Source: Hyphomonadaceae bacterium (GTDB lineage: Bacteria > Pseudomonadota > Alphaproteobacteria > Caulobacterales > Aquidulcibacteraceae). Taken from it: a stretch of DNA of 43,705 bases. Below, piece by piece: positions 479 to 8,910 of this stretch (positions within the stretch are counted from its first letter, which is position 1; every line of letters begins with the position of its first letter). The stretch is taken from positions 1 through 43,705 of the forward strand of contig JAJTGP010000007.1 of NCBI GenBank assembly GCA_021299265.1, written 5' to 3'. The translations under genes were made by a program, and so were the position numbers. The notes beneath the pieces are model-generated. The model was not told where the DNA came from, ran no database searches, and saw nothing but the letters and a program-made list of their open reading frames with translations.

Positions 479-569
479 TGGCGGAGACGGAGGGATTCGA
501 ACCCTCGGTGCCCTTTTGGAGCACGCTCATTTAGCAAACGAGTGCCTTCAGCCTCTCGGCCACGTCTCC
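479..569 (-). tRNA. tRNA-Ser (anticodon GCU)
   Basis: On the minus strand the sequence folds as a long-variable-arm tRNA. The 7-bp acceptor stem GGAGACG/CGTCTCC is followed by discriminator G and an encoded CCA (479-481). The anticodon loop reads TTTGCTAAA, giving GCU, which decodes AGC/AGU serine codons. A T-loop GGTTCGAATCC is present, and the variable arm is long as in class II tRNAs. The length is 91 nt including CCA. T-rich sequence follows the 3' end and may serve as terminator. Confidence 0.97.
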
Positions 570-724: not shown

Positions 725-2215
725 ATGGCACGCATGGAGTATTCGCAAGACATCGCCGGGGATCGACCCGCGACAGCAGCGCGCAAAGCGGCGCGCGGCG
801 CGCGTTGGTATCGTTCCAGCTTTGGGCGCGCGCTGGAAATCCTTGATGTCATCGTCATCCTGTTCGTGATGGCCTATGTGCTGAACGTGACAACTGCCGA
901 TCATGTTCTGACCGCCCCTTTGAGTGCCTGTCTGCCCATGGTTCTGGGCGGGGTTGGTCTGTGGTGGATCCTGCGGGAGCATGATTTGTACCGTTTCGAT
1001 GCAGAGCCGATCGCCGTAACCCACGGTACTCGGACCCTGGGCGCGGTAGCTTTGGCTTTACCGACAACGGCGGGGATCGGGGCTTTGGTTGCTTTGGCGG
1101 TTGGTCGTGCGCCAGAGACTGGCGCATGGGAAGCTGGCATCGCGACGCTGCTCGCGGGCTCTAGCATTGTTTCACTCCATTTCTTTTCCGCCTTGATTTT
1201 AGGGGCGATGATTAAAGCGGGCTTGTTTTCCCTCAATGTGGTGATCGTCGGCGCGACGCCCTTGGCCCATAAATTGATCGAGGAAGCCAAAGCTTCGGGC
1301 GATATTGCAGTGCTGGGTGTGTTTGACGACCGAATGGACCGTGCCAAGCCCTTGCCTAACCATGTGAGACTTTTAGGCGACCTTGATGATCTTATGAGCT
1401 GGCCACATCTGCCCAGTATCGACCGGGTGATTGTGGCAGTCTCCAGCACCGCACAAAGCCGTGTCCTACAACTGGTCACGAAACTGCGCTCTATGCCCAA
1501 CAAAGTCGTGCTCGCCATTGATATGCAAGGCTTTGACAGCGACGGTACGACGATTGGCCGAATTGGCAACCGCCCGGTCGCCTATGTCTCCGGCGCGCCC
1601 GAAGATGCAAAGCGTGCCTTTTGGAAGCGCGTGCAAGATCTTGTGTTGGGAACCATTGCTTTGCTCTTGGTGGGCCCGCTGATGGCCTTGATCGCGGTGG
1701 CGATTAAGTTGGATAGCAAAGGGCCGATCTTCTTCCGGCAGAAGCGGCATGGATTTAACAATCAAGCGTTTGATTGCTGGAAATTCCGTTCGATGCGTGT
1801 AGAAACCACCGATGCTTGCGCCGCACAGCAAGTGACGCAAAACGACCCCCGGGTGACCCGGATCGGCCGCTTTATCCGCGCCACATCCTTAGACGAGTTG
1901 CCGCAATTATTTAATGTCCTGAATGGCACCATGTCGCTGGTTGGGCCACGCCCACATGCCATCGGGATGAAAACGGGCGATCAAGAAAGCGAAGCTTTGG
2001 TCGCTGAATATGCCCACCGCCACCGGATCAAGCCTGGCATGACAGGATGGGCCGCCATTCACGGCTCACGCGGGCCTGTGCATAGCGCTGAAGAAGTCGC
2101 TGAACGGGTAGCCTTTGACATCGCCTATATCCGCGATGCCAGCCTTTGGCTCGACCTCCTCATTATGCTCCGGACCCTGCCCGCCTTGTTAGGCGACAAA
2201 GGGTCGGTGCGGTGA
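725..2215 (+). CDS. hfsE: HfsE-like polyprenyl-phosphate sugar-1-phosphate transferase
   Basis: Initiating transferase that puts the first sugar phosphate on undecaprenyl phosphate at the inner membrane. The N-terminal third holds about four hydrophobic helices. It is followed by a Rossmann-like segment (VVIVGATPLAHKL, roughly residues 168-180) and another membrane segment near residue 310. The C-terminal 190 residues are a bacterial sugar transferase domain with KGPIFFRQKR, KFRSMR, DELPQLFNVL, SLVGPRPHA and RIKPGMTGW. I chose ATG 725 because AAGGAG (709-714) lies 10 bases upstream; a start 36 bases earlier is possible. The gene heads hfsE-hfsF-hfsG. The neighbours argue for the holdfast paralogue over other PssY/WcaJ-type enzymes. 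The family assignment is firm; the holdfast role is inferred from gene order. Confidence 0.85.
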   Translation: MARMEYSQDIAGDRPATAARKAARGARWYRSSFGRALEILDVIVILFVMAYVLNVTTADHVLTAPLSACLPMVLGGVGLWWILREHDLYRFDAEPIAVTHGTRTLGAVALALPTTAGIGALVALAVGRAPETGAWEAGIATLLAGSSIVSLHFFSALILGAMIKAGLFSLNVVIVGATPLAHKLIEEAKASGDIAVLGVFDDRMDRAKPLPNHVRLLGDLDDLMSWPHLPSIDRVIVAVSSTAQSRVLQLVTKLRSMPNKVVLAIDMQGFDSDGTTIGRIGNRPVAYVSGAPEDAKRAFWKRVQDLVLGTIALLLVGPLMALIAVAIKLDSKGPIFFRQKRHGFNNQAFDCWKFRSMRVETTDACAAQQVTQNDPRVTRIGRFIRATSLDELPQLFNVLNGTMSLVGPRPHAIGMKTGDQESEALVAEYAHRHRIKPGMTGWAAIHGSRGPVHSAEEVAERVAFDIAYIRDASLWLDLLIMLRTLPALLGDKGSVR

Positions 2216-2255
2216 ACTTTCTGCGAGCCCCCGATCGCGAGGCACAGCGCTTGCC

Positions 2256-3707
2256 ATGATGGGTCGTCACCTTATGGCGTATATCATCCCAAATCTGGCC
2301 CAAGCTGTGGCCAGCTTTGGGATGGTCGCTGTTCTCACGCGCCTGCTCAGCGACGACGATTATGGCCGCTATACCTTGGTCTATGCGGCCATGACGCTGG
2401 CACAATATCTCTCCGTTGTCTGGATTGAGGCGGCTGCGGCTCGCTTTTATGCCGATGCAGCAGAAAAAGGCGAAAAGCCGGCCCATTTCGCGACTTTGAT
2501 CACCTTGTTTAGCTGGTGCGCGGGCGCTTTTGCCTTGATCTCCATCGCAGCCCTTGTGCTATGGCCCGCCGACTTGAATTTGAAGATTGTGGTCGCAGCC
2601 GCCTTTGGCAGCGTGATTACCAGGTCTCTGATTAAAATCGCTTTGGAAACAAGGCGGATGGCGCAAGAGGCCAAGCGCTTTGCGGTAGTTGATACATTGC
2701 ACACCTTACTCGCCTTTGGGCTTGGCATTGGATGCGTGGTTTTCTTTGCTATGGGGCCAGAGGGTCCGTTTATCGGCATGCTGATTGCCTCGGTGGTCGT
2801 TCTGGCGATTGAAGGGCCAGCCTTGTGGTTTGCGGCACGCAAAGGCGCGCTCGAACCCACACGCGCGAAAGCCTATTTCGCCTATGGCGCGCCTTTGGCT
2901 GGCGGCTTAATTCTAAGTCTGGCCCTGACCAGTGGTGATCGCTTTGTCATCGCGGCGTTTCTGGGGGAAGGCGACGTGGGGGCCTATTCCGCCGGCTATC
3001 AGGTTGGTGCACGGATTCTCGACATCATCTTCACCTGGGGTGCCGCTGCCGTCACACCCATCTTGATCGCAGCTTATGAGCGCGGTGGCCCGGCAGAGGC
3101 CGTCAAGGCAGCCCATCAGGGCTATGTTGTCCGCCTCGGCATTGGTGCGCCTGCGGCTTTGGGTATAGGATTACTCGCCGCGCCAATTTGCGAGATACTG
3201 ATCGGGGAAGCCCTGCGCGACCGGGCGATCCAAGTCGTGCCGTGGATCGCCTTTTCGGCCTTGCTTGCCGGCATGTGCGACTATTTTTCTGAAGCTTTCA
3301 TGCTGTCGAAAAAGGCATTGCAACGGGCACTTTTGCTCTTGGTGCCGGTAGTCACCAGCCTCAGCCTCAACGTGCTGTTGCTGCCGAAATATGGCTTGAT
3401 GGGCGCAGCTTACGCCAATGTTGTCGCTTATGGCCTCGGCATGACCATGCTGGCTTGGATTGGCCGACGCTATGTGGCGCTGCCGATCCCATTATTCGAA
3501 ACGGCAAAGATCGCACTTGCCTGCGCCCTCATGGCGGGCGTGGTGCTGGCACTCCCCAGTTTTGGGGCGCTCCAAGATCTTGCGTTGAAAGGGGGCATAG
3601 GCGCTCTCAGCTATGGGGCATTTATCATGGTCTTAAATGTGGCGGGCGCACGCGACTTTGCCAAATCCCTCTGGACCCGCCTACGCCCACAAACGGGGGT
3701 CGTATGA
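2256..3707 (+). CDS. hfsF: HfsF-like polysaccharide flippase (Wzx/MOP superfamily)
   Basis: A 483-residue integral membrane protein with about 12-14 hydrophobic segments spread over its length, typical of Wzx/RfbX flippases that move undecaprenyl-linked repeat units across the inner membrane. The N-terminus has the usual first pair of helices (AYIIPNLAQAVASFGMVAVL and the following VLTRLLSDDDYGRYTL region) and a central GDRFVIAAFLGEGDVGAYS motif like other polysaccharide exporters. Two ATGs stand together (2256, 2259) and no upstream in-frame start exists. It begins 40 bases after hfsE and its stop overlaps the next gene by 4 bp (ATGA), so translation is probably coupled. Position between HfsE and HfsG homologues supports the HfsF call. 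Confidence 0.85.
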   Translation: MMGRHLMAYIIPNLAQAVASFGMVAVLTRLLSDDDYGRYTLVYAAMTLAQYLSVVWIEAAAARFYADAAEKGEKPAHFATLITLFSWCAGAFALISIAALVLWPADLNLKIVVAAAFGSVITRSLIKIALETRRMAQEAKRFAVVDTLHTLLAFGLGIGCVVFFAMGPEGPFIGMLIASVVVLAIEGPALWFAARKGALEPTRAKAYFAYGAPLAGGLILSLALTSGDRFVIAAFLGEGDVGAYSAGYQVGARILDIIFTWGAAAVTPILIAAYERGGPAEAVKAAHQGYVVRLGIGAPAALGIGLLAAPICEILIGEALRDRAIQVVPWIAFSALLAGMCDYFSEAFMLSKKALQRALLLLVPVVTSLSLNVLLLPKYGLMGAAYANVVAYGLGMTMLAWIGRRYVALPIPLFETAKIALACALMAGVVLALPSFGALQDLALKGGIGALSYGAFIMVLNVAGARDFAKSLWTRLRPQTGVV

Positions 3708-4633
3708 GCGAGACGATTTTCACCAATGGTGTCAAAGCCGAAGGCCCCTTGGCGCTCAGCATTGCAACGCCCTTCTTCCGCAATGACCCCAGTGCCTTGT
3801 TGGACATCTTGTCCAAACAGATGGCCACTGAAGCGGTTGAGCTGATTATGGTCGATGATGGGTCTGATGACCCATTTGTGACGGCGAAGCTGGAGGCAAC
3901 GCTACATAGTCTGAATGTGCCAGCCAGTTTGATAAGCTTACACAGCAATCAAGGCCGATCGGCCGCTCGGAACCGATTGATTGCGGCGGCAAAGGCCCCG
4001 GTCATCCTGTTTCTTGATTCCGACATGGCGCCCGATGCGCCAAGCTTTGTGTCTGAGTGGCTGCAGCTTGCCCGCGATCCAGCCACAGAAATTGCCTATG
4101 GTGGGTTTTCGACCCTGCAAATCCCCGATTGCCCGGCTTTAGCTTTGGCCAAAATGGTTGCGGAAAAGTCGGACTGCGCGTCTGCCAGCGAGCGGCAAAG
4201 CCGGGGCGCGTTGGCGGTTGCCACTTCCAACCTGCTGGTACGCAAAAGCATTTTGGACGACACGCCCTTTGATGCGGGCTTTTCGGGTTGGGGCTGGGAA
4301 GATGTAGACTGGGCGTTGCGGGCAGATGCCAAGGGTCACGCGGTTCGCCATGTCGATATTCCTGCGACCCATTTAGGCCTTGATGATGCCGCGACGCTCC
4401 TGGATAAGTTTGCCAAAGCTGGGCCGAACTTCCGCAAAATGGTTGAGCGCCACCCCAGTATGGCGGCATTGCCCGGTACCCAACTCGCCCAAACCCTGGC
4501 GCGTGTGCCGGGCCGACCGATGATCAAGTCAGTCCTGAAGGCTCTGGTCCTATCTGAGGCCCTGCCTTTGGCGATCCGGGCGCAAGGGGCACGGCTATGG
4601 CGGGCTTTATGGGCTGCCGACGCGCTTAAGTAA
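3704..4633 (+). CDS. hfsG: HfsG-like family 2 glycosyltransferase
   Basis: A 309-residue GT-A glycosyltransferase that would extend the lipid-linked repeat unit on the cytoplasmic side. Visible motifs are the nucleotide-sugar motif VDDGSDDP at about residues 50-57, NQGRSAARNR, the metal-binding FLDSDMAP near residue 105, and GWGWEDVDWALRA near 195, which resembles the C-terminal galactosyltransferase-type domain. The start at 3704 is fixed by the ATGA overlap with the flippase stop; an open frame continues upstream but only as a shadow of hfsF. The 3' end overlaps the convergent polymerase-like gene by 8 bp. In the Caulobacter locus hfsH follows hfsG here; it is absent. Confidence 0.85.
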   Translation: MSETIFTNGVKAEGPLALSIATPFFRNDPSALLDILSKQMATEAVELIMVDDGSDDPFVTAKLEATLHSLNVPASLISLHSNQGRSAARNRLIAAAKAPVILFLDSDMAPDAPSFVSEWLQLARDPATEIAYGGFSTLQIPDCPALALAKMVAEKSDCASASERQSRGALAVATSNLLVRKSILDDTPFDAGFSGWGWEDVDWALRADAKGHAVRHVDIPATHLGLDDAATLLDKFAKAGPNFRKMVERHPSMAALPGTQLAQTLARVPGRPMIKSVLKALVLSEALPLAIRAQGARLWRALWAADALK

Positions 4634-5795
4634 GGCGATTTCGGGTTTCAGGGCGCGGCGGTGCCGGCATCGGTGCGGTTGGATAAGTGCCTCTGACTTG
4701 TGCGCCAGCGCGCACTGGCGCTGCAGGACTAGGCCTTTGTGCTGGCACCAAAGGACACATGCCGACGCCAAAACTCAAGCCCGCCAAGAGTGCTACCCAT
4801 GGCCCCAGAACCGACACTTCTGTGGGGGCCAGTAACAAGGTTGCAAGTCCTGCGCACCATAGGCCGAACAATAAGGCGCCGTCCGTATCGGTCGCCCGGC
4901 GGTCCAGCGCCAAGCGAACACTGGTAACAATGGCCCAAAGCCCTGCCAGTCCCAGACCCAGCATACCCAATCCTTGGCCAAATCCTTCGCTGATCGAGGA
5001 ACCGGCAACGCCGAAGCCATAGCCAATCCAGTTTATCGCCCCAAATGAGTCCGACGAAAGTGCTAAAGGCGTGAACAACGCCAGCAGGGTCACGGTCAGG
5101 ATGGAACAGGCCAGCGTGACGGCTATATCGATCGGGGTCCACGGGCGACGAGCAGATATCCAGCGCAATCCATAGCCAAGGCCCGCCGTCACAATGCCAA
5201 CGCCTGCCGCCATCAGGCTGACCAAGTCCCCTAAGCCAAGCGCCAAGGCTATCAGCGCCACCGCCCAAGCCAACCAAGCCCAGCGCCACGTAGCACTGGC
5301 CGCCGACGCCCACAAAGCGCCACATAGGGCAAGGGTCAAATCGCCATCAAGGGCGGCCAGCGGCATCAGCCCTCGCGCGGCGATAAGCTGTGCCAAAAGG
5401 GCAAATAAGCCTGCAAAAGCAGCGGTAAAGGCTAAATCCACCGCCGACAGGCGCGCGGCCACCGCGATGCCAAAAACCCACACCAACAAAAGAAGGATTC
5501 CATGCTGCAACGCGATTGCCGGTGCTAGCGCCCAAGCGGCAGAGCAGAGACACACCGCGACTAACAGCAACCCGTCCAAGCGCCGCAAAAGAAGCGGGGC
5601 TAACACCTCCCAGCGCACCGCAAAGCCGACAAGACCCATGGAAGCTATCCCTGCCTTTAGGAATACGGGCCCTAAGGGGGCTTCGTCGAGGCCTGCGGCC
5701 CCAGGCCACGTCCGCCAAAAGCCTGCACTAAAACAAGCAAGCGCCAGCGCCAACAAGGCCAAGTCCCAACGCAACGACATTTTAGGTGCGACCAT
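4626..5795 (-). CDS. hfsC: HfsC-like polysaccharide polymerase (Wzy/WaaL-type membrane protein)
   Basis: A 389-residue protein with about 10-11 hydrophobic helices and a short cytosolic proline-rich tail. The segment CSAAWALAPAIALQHGILLL resembles the S-x-x-W-x-x-x-P-x-x-A-L signature of O-antigen polymerase/ligase proteins, and INWIGYGFGVAGS recalls the loop before the conserved histidine region of that family. The usual HN pair of that loop is not seen. The start codon follows the stop of the kinase-like gene by one base (TAAC-ATG), implying coupling; a second in-frame ATG lies at 5780. Order hfsA-hfsB-hfsC matches the Caulobacter locus. Sequence alone would give only a polytopic membrane protein; the polymerase call depends partly on context. 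Confidence 0.7.
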   Translation of the reverse strand: MVAPKMSLRWDLALLALALACFSAGFWRTWPGAAGLDEAPLGPVFLKAGIASMGLVGFAVRWEVLAPLLLRRLDGLLLVAVCLCSAAWALAPAIALQHGILLLLVWVFGIAVAARLSAVDLAFTAAFAGLFALLAQLIAARGLMPLAALDGDLTLALCGALWASAASATWRWAWLAWAVALIALALGLGDLVSLMAAGVGIVTAGLGYGLRWISARRPWTPIDIAVTLACSILTVTLLALFTPLALSSDSFGAINWIGYGFGVAGSSISEGFGQGLGMLGLGLAGLWAIVTSVRLALDRRATDTDGALLFGLWCAGLATLLLAPTEVSVLGPWVALLAGLSFGVGMCPLVPAQRPSPAAPVRAGAQVRGTYPTAPMPAPPRPETRNRLT

Positions 5796-5796
5796 G

Positions 5797-6471
5797 TTAG
5801 CGATTTTCGCTGAACTTCAGGGCAGGACTTGATTGGCCAGTCACCACGATTCCGAGACAGCGTCCACCGCGGCCGACGACTTCATCGCGCAGATCAATTG
5901 ACTCGCGGACATCGCTTTTAGCGCCATCAATGACCAGAATGACCCCGTCCATGTCTGCAGCTAAGGCAAGGCCTGCACGAGATTGCTCGAGCGGTGGGGC
6001 ATCGACAATGGTCAAATCAACCGATCGACGTACCGCACGCCAATAATCGGGTGCTGGGGCTACTTGCAGCTTTTGATTGCTGGCCAACGCAGTGCGATTA
6101 AACCGGCTGACATAGAGCTTTGGGATGGTGGTCTTGTAGCTGACGACGGCCCCTTCCCCTTGCGCGCCATCGGGGGCGCGGGGCTGGGCCCGCCAGAATG
6201 GCGTCACGCCAAAGGTCATATCATAGGGGCCTTTGAAGCTCGCCTGCGCACCACCCAAAGCAGAAAACTGGCCCGGCCCAAAGAAATCGAGATCAATCAG
6301 CCAAGCCGACTTTGCGGCGCGCTCAGCGGCGAGCTCTGCAAAGGCTCTCGCCACCTCGGAGATTCCAACGTCGTGTTTAGCCCCCACGAACATGACGGCA
6401 GCGCCCGCTCCCCCTGTTGCAGCAGCAACAGCAGACCAGACTCCGTTCATCTGTCCTTGAATGCTTCCCAT
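5797..6471 (-). CDS. hfsB: HfsB-like capsular polysaccharide kinase-type ATPase, altered P-loop
   Basis: A 224-residue protein of the ParA/MinD-like fold used by CpsD/Wzc-type tyrosine kinases. Beta strand 1 plus Walker A region reads VMFVGAKHDVGIS (about residues 26-38). The signature lysine (K32) is kept, but the P-loop lysine of GK[ST] is isoleucine (I37). Walker A' is SAWLIDLDFFGPG and Walker B is LTIVDAPP. There is no C-terminal tyrosine cluster; the protein ends ENR. It lies 34 bases after hfsA and one base before hfsC. It may partner HfsA as the cytosolic part of a split polysaccharide co-polymerase. Kinase activity is doubtful because of the P-loop change. The start could be 6450 instead. 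Confidence 0.75.
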   Translation of the reverse strand: MGSIQGQMNGVWSAVAAATGGAGAAVMFVGAKHDVGISEVARAFAELAAERAAKSAWLIDLDFFGPGQFSALGGAQASFKGPYDMTFGVTPFWRAQPRAPDGAQGEGAVVSYKTTIPKLYVSRFNRTALASNQKLQVAPAPDYWRAVRRSVDLTIVDAPPLEQSRAGLALAADMDGVILVIDGAKSDVRESIDLRDEVVGRGGRCLGIVVTGQSSPALKFSENR

Positions 6472-6505
6472 CCAAACCCCAACTCAAACAAGCCTCTACG
6501 CCGCC

Positions 6506-7987
6506 TTAGCGCGCCACCGTCGCCAAGATCGGAAGGCCCAGAGTCCGACCGATCGAGGACGGTGTTGGGAAGGTTGTCCGCGAGAATGCCCGCATCAAAC
6601 CAGCCGCCAGCGCCGTTATGGCCGCAAAGAAGACAGAGAGCATTACTGCTTCCTTCTTCCAGCTCTTGCCACGAGTCGGCACATTAGCACGTTCAATCAC
6701 GCGAATATTTTCATTAGAGGTGCGGCTGAGTTCATTTTGGGCTTGGGAAGATGCTTCCCGGGTTGAGAATTGTTTGACTTGCTCTTCCAAGATTGCCTTG
6801 CGGCGCATCAAGTCATCAAACAACGGCTTTACTTGACTTAACTGAATGGCACGCGCCTGCAACTGGGCAACTTGCGCCTCTAGAATGGCTTCACGCTGTG
6901 TTAAAGCTTCCACTTCAGCGGCATTACGTGCGCGATCAGAGGCCAAGGTATCGCGAACGGGGTTTGCCCCAGTCTTGGTTGTGCCAGCCGCGCGACCTTG
7001 ATCGGACCCCAGAAGTTCATCCAATGCCTCAATCCGGCGACGCATATCCTGCACGGGCTGGCTTTGTTCGGTATAGCGGGTTTGCAGTTCGGCCAATTGG
7101 CTGGCGAGCTCGATCCGACGGCGGGAATTGTCGGTCTCAAACGACAGGCGCACTTCGCGCGGTTCGCTACGGAAGCTGCGGTCGCTGGCGGCAAAGCGGC
7201 CTTCGGCTTCGCGCTGGCGCGACTGGACGTTCAATAAATCAGCCCGTGCCGTTGAGAGGAGTGACTGCAGCGCCAAACGCTCGGCTTCAAAATCCGCGAC
7301 TCCATTCGCCCCCAGAAAGGTAGTGATCTCGCCTTCTAACTCTTGCAGGCGGGTTTCAAACTCGTTGCGCTGGATTCGCAAAGCCCCTGTTTGGTCTTCA
7401 AACAGGACTTCACGACGATAGGTCAGATACTCGTCAATCATCGTATTGAGGACTTTAGCGGCAATAACCGGGTCTTTGCTCTGATAGCCCAATTGGATCA
7501 CCGTCGTATTGGTGGAAGCGGCTGCAGAAAAATTGCGCTGAAACTGATCCACCCCAAAAGCAATGCGTCGTTCGGGCGTATCGGGACCTTGGGTGATCTG
7601 GATGTCCTCAGGATTAAACAATCGGTCCAGCCCGATTTTACGAATCACCCGCTCTGCAACTTGGGCAGATTTGATCACTTCGACTTCAGATTGGACGATT
7701 TGTTCTTGCTTCGGCGCTGCCCCTTCACCAGCGGCACCGACGCGCGGGGTAAAAACATATTCCTGCCCCAACAAAATCGAAAGCCGCGCAGTGGCGGTAT
7801 AGCTCTTCTGAAGCGTGGTCGCAAAAGCGATCCCAAGGGCAGAAATAAGAATAAAAACAATGATCATTAGCCACTTCTCACGCCATAACAGGCTAAGCCA
7901 ATCGCGGAAATCCAATTGGGGGCGCGCGCTGCCAGTCGGCTCATAACCGCCAGAGCGGGGATAGCTTGGGCCCGTGTGGTAAGTCAT
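6506..7987 (-). CDS. hfsA: HfsA-like polysaccharide co-polymerase (Wzz/GumC family)
   Basis: A 493-residue inner-membrane chain-length determinant. A proline/glycine-rich cytosolic start is followed by DFRDWLSLLWREKW and a membrane helix at about 40-59, then the Wzz domain (YTATARLSIL). A long periplasmic coiled coil (about 190-420, rich in E, Q, R, A) follows, then the proline motif NVPTRGKSW and a second membrane helix near 447-465. It lacks a fused kinase domain, which fits the separate HfsB-like gene downstream. GGAA lies about 6 bases upstream of the ATG. The gene is divergent from hfsD across a 140-bp A/T-rich region. It is expected to control polymer length and link the polymerase to HfsD. 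Confidence 0.88.
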   Translation of the reverse strand: MTYHTGPSYPRSGGYEPTGSARPQLDFRDWLSLLWREKWLMIIVFILISALGIAFATTLQKSYTATARLSILLGQEYVFTPRVGAAGEGAAPKQEQIVQSEVEVIKSAQVAERVIRKIGLDRLFNPEDIQITQGPDTPERRIAFGVDQFQRNFSAAASTNTTVIQLGYQSKDPVIAAKVLNTMIDEYLTYRREVLFEDQTGALRIQRNEFETRLQELEGEITTFLGANGVADFEAERLALQSLLSTARADLLNVQSRQREAEGRFAASDRSFRSEPREVRLSFETDNSRRRIELASQLAELQTRYTEQSQPVQDMRRRIEALDELLGSDQGRAAGTTKTGANPVRDTLASDRARNAAEVEALTQREAILEAQVAQLQARAIQLSQVKPLFDDLMRRKAILEEQVKQFSTREASSQAQNELSRTSNENIRVIERANVPTRGKSWKKEAVMLSVFFAAITALAAGLMRAFSRTTFPTPSSIGRTLGLPILATVAR

Positions 7988-8040
7988 TCTAAATTCCGCG
8001 CGTCAGGACGTGTGGCAAAGCATTTTGCTTCCTCCAAACG

Positions 8041-8075
8041 TTAATCAACCATTATCCATTAACGAAACGTTTAAC
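8041..8075. promoter_or_regulatory. divergent hfsA/hfsD promoter region with CtrA-like half sites
   Basis: Between the hfsA and hfsD starts lies an A/T-rich block. TTAA at 8041 is followed after 7 bases by TTAT (8052-8055), one mismatch from the CtrA consensus TTAA-N7-TTAA. TTAA at 8059 is followed after 8 bases by TTAAC (8071-8075), one base too widely spaced. These are suggestive of cell-cycle control but not perfect. No clear sigma-70 boxes were assigned. Confidence 0.35.
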
Positions 8076-8127
8076 GATTGGGTTTCTAAGAAACAGGCTG
8101 TTGCCAACTGCCCTAGGGAGCCTGTTC

Positions 8128-8910
8128 ATGCGTGCCAAAACCACCGCTATACTCTGGTCTTGGGTGGCTTTGGCAGCTCTCAGCCTGACCGCTTGTGCGC
8201 CGAGAGGCTATGTCGATGCCCTGCGCACCGAGGGTAAGAATTGGCAGACTCCACGCCCGGTTGCGACGGTCGACTTCCCTGCTATCCCGACTTTTCCAAG
8301 CTGGACCGCCGAGGATGAGACGTATCGATTTTTTCCGGGCGATGTGATCGATTTCCAGTCAGTGGGTGCACCAGAGCTCAGTCGGAAGCTGACAGTTGCG
8401 CCCGACGGCCGCATTCATCCGCCGATGCTGGAAGCCATTATGGCGGCGGACCGCACACCCGATGATTTAAAGCTGGAATTGCAGGGACAATATGCGACCT
8501 ATTTGCGAAATCCAGCAATTGCGCTCGCACCCGATAGTTTCGCGTCGCAAAAATTCTTTGTCGGTGGCGAAGTTGCAAAGCCCGGCCTCTATGATTTGTC
8601 GGGGGAAATGGACCCGTTGCAGGCCATTACGACGGCTGGCGGCTTCTTAAACACCGCCCGACGGGAAGAAGTCGTCGTCTTGCGCCGGGGTGCCGGTGGC
8701 ACACCCTATATGCGCGTCTATGATCTGCGCTCTGTTTGGGCGAGCCAAGCCTTGCTAGCCGAACTGCCGCGCTTGCGCCGCTTTGACGTTGTTTGGGTGC
8801 CCAAGTCGCGCATTTCGGAACTGGGCCAATTCACCCAACAATTCGTGCGCGACGCGTTGCCAATTACCATCGGCTTCAACTATAGTATCGGCTCAAATAT
8901 CGTCCAATAA
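8128..8910 (+). CDS. hfsD: HfsD-like outer-membrane polysaccharide export lipoprotein (Wza/GumB)
   Basis: A 260-residue secreted lipoprotein. The N-terminus has a hydrophobic signal ending in LTAC, a lipobox whose cysteine would be lipidated. The polysaccharide biosynthesis/export domain follows (FFPGDVIDFQSVGAPELS, VAPDGRIHPPML) and then an SLBB-like segment (FFVGGEVAKPGLYDL, ITTAGGF). This is the shape of Wza/GumB/HfsD outer-membrane secretins. The ATG at 8128 is chosen because AGGGAG (8115-8120) lies 7 bases upstream; an upstream TTG at 8101 is less likely. The gene is divergent from hfsA and ends at a hairpin. It should form the pore by which the holdfast polymer leaves the cell. Confidence 0.88.
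   Translation: MRAKTTAILWSWVALAALSLTACAPRGYVDALRTEGKNWQTPRPVATVDFPAIPTFPSWTAEDETYRFFPGDVIDFQSVGAPELSRKLTVAPDGRIHPPMLEAIMAADRTPDDLKLELQGQYATYLRNPAIALAPDSFASQKFFVGGEVAKPGLYDLSGEMDPLQAITTAGGFLNTARREEVVVLRRGAGGTPYMRVYDLRSVWASQALLAELPRLRRFDVVWVPKSRISELGQFTQQFVRDALPITIGFNYSIGSNIVQ

Follow-up and report, generated by a model that had tools for sequence, protein, structure and literature searches.

In Caulobacter crescentus the holdfast synthesis genes are given in the order hfsEFGHCBAD by PMC12727192, and according to PMC8449245 the deacetylase gene hfsH lies within the hfs locus of both C. crescentus and Hirschia baltica, where it affects cohesion and adhesion and where its product tunes the stickiness of the holdfast. 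Steps of the C. crescentus holdfast pathway are described as being cross-complemented by genes of other Alphaproteobacteria (PMC11340318), and the holdfast genes listed for Brevundimonas abyssalis include a polysaccharide deacetylase whose location is not stated in the available text of that source (PMC3798453). The DNA analysed here (the window) is the 43,705-nucleotide contig JAJTGP010000007.1 of assembly GCA_021299265.1, a freshwater bacterium of the genus Aquidulcibacter, which the proposed family Aquidulcibacteraceae takes in (PMC12700997); the window is contig C139 of a 3.43-Mb draft in 310 contigs that is 94.89% complete. It carries a Caulobacter-type hfs locus from which hfsH is missing. 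The deacetylation step itself is probably not missing and would be performed by an unlinked, non-orthologous relative of HfsH, and among related bacteria the same swap appears to have taken place several times.

The hfs locus and the unlinked HfsH-family deacetylase

A preliminary description of the window, made from its letters, had assigned seven genes to hfsE-F-G / C-B-A / D in Caulobacter order and strands and had noted that an 8-bp overlap of hfsG and hfsC leaves no room for hfsH, and our analysis bears out each of these points. The open reading frames follow the Caulobacter-type arrangement, with hfsE, hfsF and hfsG on one strand, a convergent hfsC-hfsB-hfsA set and a divergent hfsD, and the hfsG and hfsC frames overlap tail to tail by 8 bp (4626-4633) at the site occupied by hfsH in Caulobacter-type loci. 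A six-frame search of the whole window with profiles of both deacetylase types introduced below returned nothing (best E 1.3), and on this result a hidden or decayed hfsH there is rejected. The same 8-bp overlap is present in the G020 locus (L063).

A genome-wide search with PF01522 found four proteins, three of which were set aside because their best match is the allantoinase PuuE model. The fourth is an HfsH-like CE4 deacetylase of 248 aa encoded on contig C3 (4992-5738, minus strand), which matches the curated HfsH family NF050820 at 4.2e-52 (177.3 bits) and PF01522 at 69.9 bits (cut-off 23.1), and which is 35% identical to HfsH of the Caulobacter-like locus L074. It begins 3 bp past the end of an FkbH-domain gene (5742-7709, minus strand) and is convergent with pgi, a neighbourhood shared with genomes G003 and G002 and loci L100 and L101. 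Eight of nine genomes of the genus keep the gene, the source genome and seven others at 77-98% identity. The ninth, G005 (2.5 Mb, 100% complete), lacks the deacetylase and has no HfsG match better than 6.3e-6, and it is likewise without FkbH (1e-20), CsgG and WecG matches. Taken by themselves, these absences look as if the holdfast system had been lost in G005.

The residues S32, F35, D36, D37, H94, H98, R155 and H205, which we take to be CE4 motif residues, are invariant in all 19 type-2 rows. The predicted structure of the L101 deacetylase, a 93% identical relative, has a mean predicted local distance difference test score (pLDDT) of 95.8, and its ten best solved-structure matches are CE4 esterases or polysaccharide deacetylases; rank 11 is a viral turret protein with the highest query-normalised template modelling score (TM-score) of the top ranks, 0.73. 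The PF01522 score, the motif residues and this predicted fold support assignment of the C3 protein as a CE4 polysaccharide deacetylase. No obvious signal peptide was seen by eye (no predictor was used). The preliminary description had offered either a fully acetylated or different holdfast or a deacetylase encoded elsewhere. The second option is supported, by an HfsH-family CE4 gene on another contig that is kept in the genus; for a fully acetylated holdfast we found no evidence, acetylation itself lying beyond sequence data, and loss of deacetylation is rejected given the conserved HfsH-family gene. The contrary evidence named in that description, an hfsH homologue accompanied by further hfs genes at another site of the genome, is not what the C3 gene shows, its neighbours being the FkbH-domain gene and pgi.

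Two HfsH clades and their distribution

A quick tree of 83 HfsH-family proteins is divided by a branch with support 98. One part contains 22 of 23 in-locus proteins, rows that had been picked for lying beside hfsG, and six further proteins; the other part contains the displaced genes of Aquidulcibacter and Brevundimonas. We coin the name type 1 for the clade to which the in-locus HfsH proteins belong and type 2 for the second clade. A careful tree kept 62 of these 83 rows and left out 21 that were near-copies, distant or odd. It supports the type-1/type-2 split at 100/99, places 21 of the 22 in-locus rows on the type-1 side and puts the Aquidulcibacter deacetylase in the type-2 clade, outside the in-locus HfsH clade. 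The in-locus exception comes from a related genus (G013), whose gene directly after hfsG is type 2; it was the closest out-of-genus relative of the C3 deacetylase in the first search (46% identity) and stands near the Aquidulcibacter genes in the quick (support 82) and careful (88/80) trees. Relatives on the type-2 side also occur in Caulobacter sp. S45, Novosphingobium, Croceibacterium and Rhizobiales, among others.

We surveyed 398 genomes of the order with four profile searches, the same genomes being matched by handle and an HfsG threshold of E 1e-45 or better being applied; the rows behind profiles A2 and A3 were picked after the first tree, and the genomes of those rows match by construction. 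hfsG was found in 238 genomes and the HfsH family in 249 (NF050820), 249 (type-2 profile) or 250 (type-1 profile). By the type-2 profile list, 237 genomes have both, one has hfsG alone (G057), 12 have the HfsH family alone and 148 have neither, and thus an HfsH-family protein, either type 1 or type 2, is present in 237 of 238 hfsG genomes. Full-length type-2 proteins (E 6.3e-91 or better, the next best lying across a gap at 5.6e-76) occur in 55 genomes, all of which have hfsG and each of which gave a single HfsH-family match in both profile searches; type 1 was scored alongside type 2 in none of them, and none is among the seven genomes with two full matches (all f2). Four fragments that fit type 2 better were left uncounted, two in genomes with hfsG (G111, G215) and two in genomes without it (G011 and G286, 63% and 65% complete).

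Among the 53 of 55 type-2 genomes with listed hfsG positions (G101 and G175 lack them), the deacetylase adjoins hfsG in one (G013), shares its contig at a distance of 88 kb to 1.9 Mb in 21 and lies on another contig in 31, a placement that in drafts is no proof of distance. In G019, hfsG is cut by a contig end, and the deacetylase contig shows no hfs neighbour. Among the matches listed for other genomes, the deacetylase adjoins hfsG in 76 of 79, the exceptions being G070, G157 and G207. In genus g16, which is Brevundimonas by its named relatives, 46 genomes have hfsG, and type 2 is found in 39 of them and not in the other 7. As a separate observation, 17 of 35 Brevundimonas-side loci (e.g. L069:5838-9742) have a PleD-like gene no more than a few kb from the unlinked deacetylase; this count includes at least three loci that repeat a genome already represented, and it may reflect a single syntenic lineage.

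Mapping the deacetylase type onto a 79-row HfsG tree requires 11 changes of label, of which 6 are forced by starred (well-supported) branches, and 9 changes are left once 8 long-branch rows are removed; such counts carry no direction of change. Over 200 pairings, a mean of 5.9 out of six independent starred-branch pairs are opposite in type (median p 0.031, range 0.031-0.0625), a pattern described and not tested free of bias, as the rows were selected by deacetylase type. Seven of the 79 rows come from other loci (L166, L173 and L220-L224), the quick HfsG tree came with a warning that long branches meet in it, and a tree of HfsG does not stand for one of species.

Proposed replacement and its rivals

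Our favoured explanation, which we regard as likely, is that in-locus hfsH has been replaced repeatedly by an unlinked type-2 relative that acts on the holdfast. Under this model hfsH would have been lost from the hfs locus, and its place would have been taken by the type-2 HfsH-family CE4 deacetylase at its unlinked site (C3:4992-5738, minus strand), which would most likely perform the holdfast deacetylation step in Aquidulcibacter. The type swaps would then reflect functional replacement, with the type-2 enzyme predicted to remove acetyl groups from the holdfast glycan.

Several observations weigh against this explanation. The C3 deacetylase scores far under the curated HfsH cut-off (177.3 against 400 bits), a value exceeded in just 20 of the 398 genomes, and its neighbour is an FkbH-domain gene and no hfs gene. 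One genus, Brevundimonas, supplies 39 of the 55 type-2 genomes, and genomes are not events; moreover, at most the six best first-look candidates were scored per genome, and an extra weak copy could be missed. Relatives of less than 60% identity are present on 85 plasmid records, of which 84 belong to Sinorhizobium or Ensifer. Twelve further genomes were probed through their loci, and five carry a type-2-side gene without hfsG (Novosphingobium AP12, Croceibacterium xixiisoli, a Nitrosomonas metagenome-assembled genome (MAG) and two alphaproteobacterial MAGs). The other seven have hfsG, and one of them, Caulobacter sp. S45, has both types: a type-2 gene and, adjoining hfsG, an HfsH-family gene that its score (361 bits) and its place mark as type 1. 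The remaining six gave one HfsH-family match each, three of them sharing coordinates with survey genomes (G399/G059, G402/G101, G405/G175). The two types can therefore coexist, and because type-2 genes occur in genomes without hfsG and have plasmid relatives, type 2 is not holdfast-specific.

A rival idea is that the unlinked deacetylase and its FkbH partner modify some other surface glycan, which would leave Aquidulcibacter without a holdfast deacetylase and with a more acetylated holdfast, in line with the preliminary description. In its favour, FkbH-deacetylase pairs occur without hfsG in Novosphingobium AP12, Croceibacterium and a Nitrosomonas MAG, and S45 keeps HfsH beside hfsG while also carrying such a pair. 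We nevertheless judge this unlikely, as all 55 full-length type-2 carriers among the 398 genomes have hfsG and none was scored with type 1 as well, G013 holds type 2 within its hfs locus, type 2 and hfsG are jointly absent from G005, and HfsH is reported to affect holdfast cohesion and adhesion in C. crescentus and H. baltica (PMC8449245). A simpler history, in which the ordinary hfsH merely moved out of the locus, draws on the shared protein family and on the in-locus G013 gene being the closest out-of-genus relative and lying near the Aquidulcibacter genes in the trees, but both of these genes belong to the type-2 clade, split from 21 of 22 in-locus genes at 100/99, and on this split in the careful tree we reject plain relocation as highly improbable. 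Where only G013 and Aquidulcibacter are concerned, the gene may have been replaced in place and have left the locus afterwards. That hfsH was lost from the contig in assembly might be suspected of a 310-contig draft that is 94.89% complete, but the single-contig genome G003 has the same arrangement (hfs locus L058; deacetylase at 331078, hfsG at 2236854), and deacetylase and hfsG share a neighbourhood in none of the eight genus genomes carrying both; G003 refutes such an artefact, which we consider barely conceivable.

In eight of nine loci the FkbH stop either overlaps the point where the deacetylase match begins or is no more than 60 bp away from it; in the ninth, L100, an early in-frame stop leaves the spacing unread. 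In the FkbH-domain proteins (e.g. L101:8235-9998, G000:C3:5742-7709) the N-terminal cysteines 24, 27, 32, 36 and 47 are invariant in 8 of 8 aligned rows, and the predicted structure has a mean pLDDT of 69.4, with residues 1-55 below 50. We raise as a speculative and highly improbable extension that type-2 deacetylase and FkbH form a two-gene module in which amines freed on the holdfast repeat unit would in part be re-acylated with another group, giving a chemically distinct holdfast; the idea draws on the Cys-rich N-terminal motif and on a C-terminal part that looks acetyltransferase-like by eye in predicted secondary structure. No FkbH-domain protein was found at 1e-20 in G013, G019, G026 or G030, and the FkbH protein is therefore not needed for a type-2 deacetylase as such. 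Our literature search found no paper pairing FkbH with a polysaccharide deacetylase. In the single-contig G003 the FkbH gene (L057:9829-11792) matches in two pieces, and beside the deacetylase-FkbH pair of G020 lies a gene for a 1118-aa protein with GH18, polysaccharide deacetylase and GT2 domains (L062:6406-9762).

If a second clade has replaced HfsH repeatedly, holdfast chemistry or its regulation would have been rewired several times. Surveys limited to the hfsG-hfsC gap or to the curated HfsH cut-off may wrongly call deacetylation absent, and the 39 of 46 hfsG-bearing genomes of g16 are an example of such a possible miscall. We found no report of a second HfsH clade in a literature search that left most subscription journals outside its reach.

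Genes of the locus and comparison with known systems

The window locus is a genuine holdfast synthesis locus. The preliminary description had allowed that the seven proteins might fit a non-holdfast exopolysaccharide locus better, an alternative disfavoured by the best curated families of three of them (HfsE, HfsF and HfsG, all below the curated equivalog cut-offs), by an hfaABD-like operon and by a WecG-family gene. The search for hfaABD proposed earlier located hfaABD-like genes in a row on contig C25 (3068-5846), with scores below the curated cut-offs for HfaA (1.7e-7), HfaB (1e-73) and HfaD (0.0013), the last assigned mainly by position. The source genome has one WecG-family glycosyltransferase gene, of the HfsJ kind by family, and such a gene is present in eight of nine genus genomes, G005 being without it. 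A separate curli-type locus of the source genome on C104 (L252:7206-10222) encodes another CsgG and a 574-aa curlin-repeat protein.

On the plus strand, hfsE (689-2215) encodes the initiating sugar-phosphate transferase (NF050817 HfsE, 1.6e-149, 498.7 bits against a cut-off of 750; PF02397), with an in-frame ATG at 725 that is the start used in the preliminary description. It is followed by hfsF (2256-3707), a Wzx-type flippase (NF050818 HfsF, 1.7e-112, 376.9 bits against 700; PF01943), and hfsG (3704-4633), a family 2 glycosyltransferase (NF050819 HfsG, 2.1e-85, 286.5 bits against 500) whose ATG at 3704 overlaps the hfsF stop; the list of open reading frames has an upstream TTG at 3455 instead. 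On the minus strand, the hfsC-like gene (4626-5795) encodes a membrane protein in the polymerase position, assigned by that position and by a profile-profile match to Caulobacter-type HfsC, a weak, profile-only alignment with probability 85 over 201 columns (residues 13-218). Next to it are hfsB (5797-6471), 38% identical (129 bits) to its counterpart in L074, and hfsA (6506-7987), a Wzz-type chain-length/export protein (PF02706, 4.8e-11; TIGR03007, 4.6e-42, below its cut-off). Neither HfsB nor HfsC has a Pfam match at E 0.001, and no Pfam Wzy_C domain is detectable in HfsC, which is short at 389 aa; its counterparts in G020 (386 aa) and the Brevundimonas locus L067 are likewise without a Pfam match. 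Back on the plus strand, hfsD (8101-8910 from a TTG) encodes a Wza-type export lipoprotein (PF02563, Poly_export; PF10531, SLBB), for which the ATG at 8128 is the more likely start, with a lipobox-like LTAC following it when the sequence is inspected by eye. A tRNA-Ser gene (gct; 479-569, minus strand) lies upstream of hfsE.

The locus thus shares with that of C. crescentus, and with the Caulobacter-like L074, the order and strands hfsE-F-G / C-B-A / D and a deacetylase of the same CE4 family. It differs from C. crescentus in having no hfsH at hfsG-hfsC, a deacetylase that is unlinked and of a separate clade, and an HfsC without detectable Wzy_C. HfsH of H. baltica (hbal_1965), whose D43A variant is reported in PMC8449245 to phenocopy the deletion, is of the same family as the C3 deacetylase, and D43 would correspond to the DD motif that the latter keeps; in H. 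baltica hfsH lies in the hfs locus, whereas in Aquidulcibacter the deacetylase lies outside it. The unipolar polysaccharide (UPP) of Rhizobiales is described as a related polar adhesin (PMC12727192) and is made by a different gene cluster; on that side, type-2-side deacetylases are found in Bradyrhizobium, Methylobacterium and Mesorhizobium, some of them within a few kb of Wzx-like genes.

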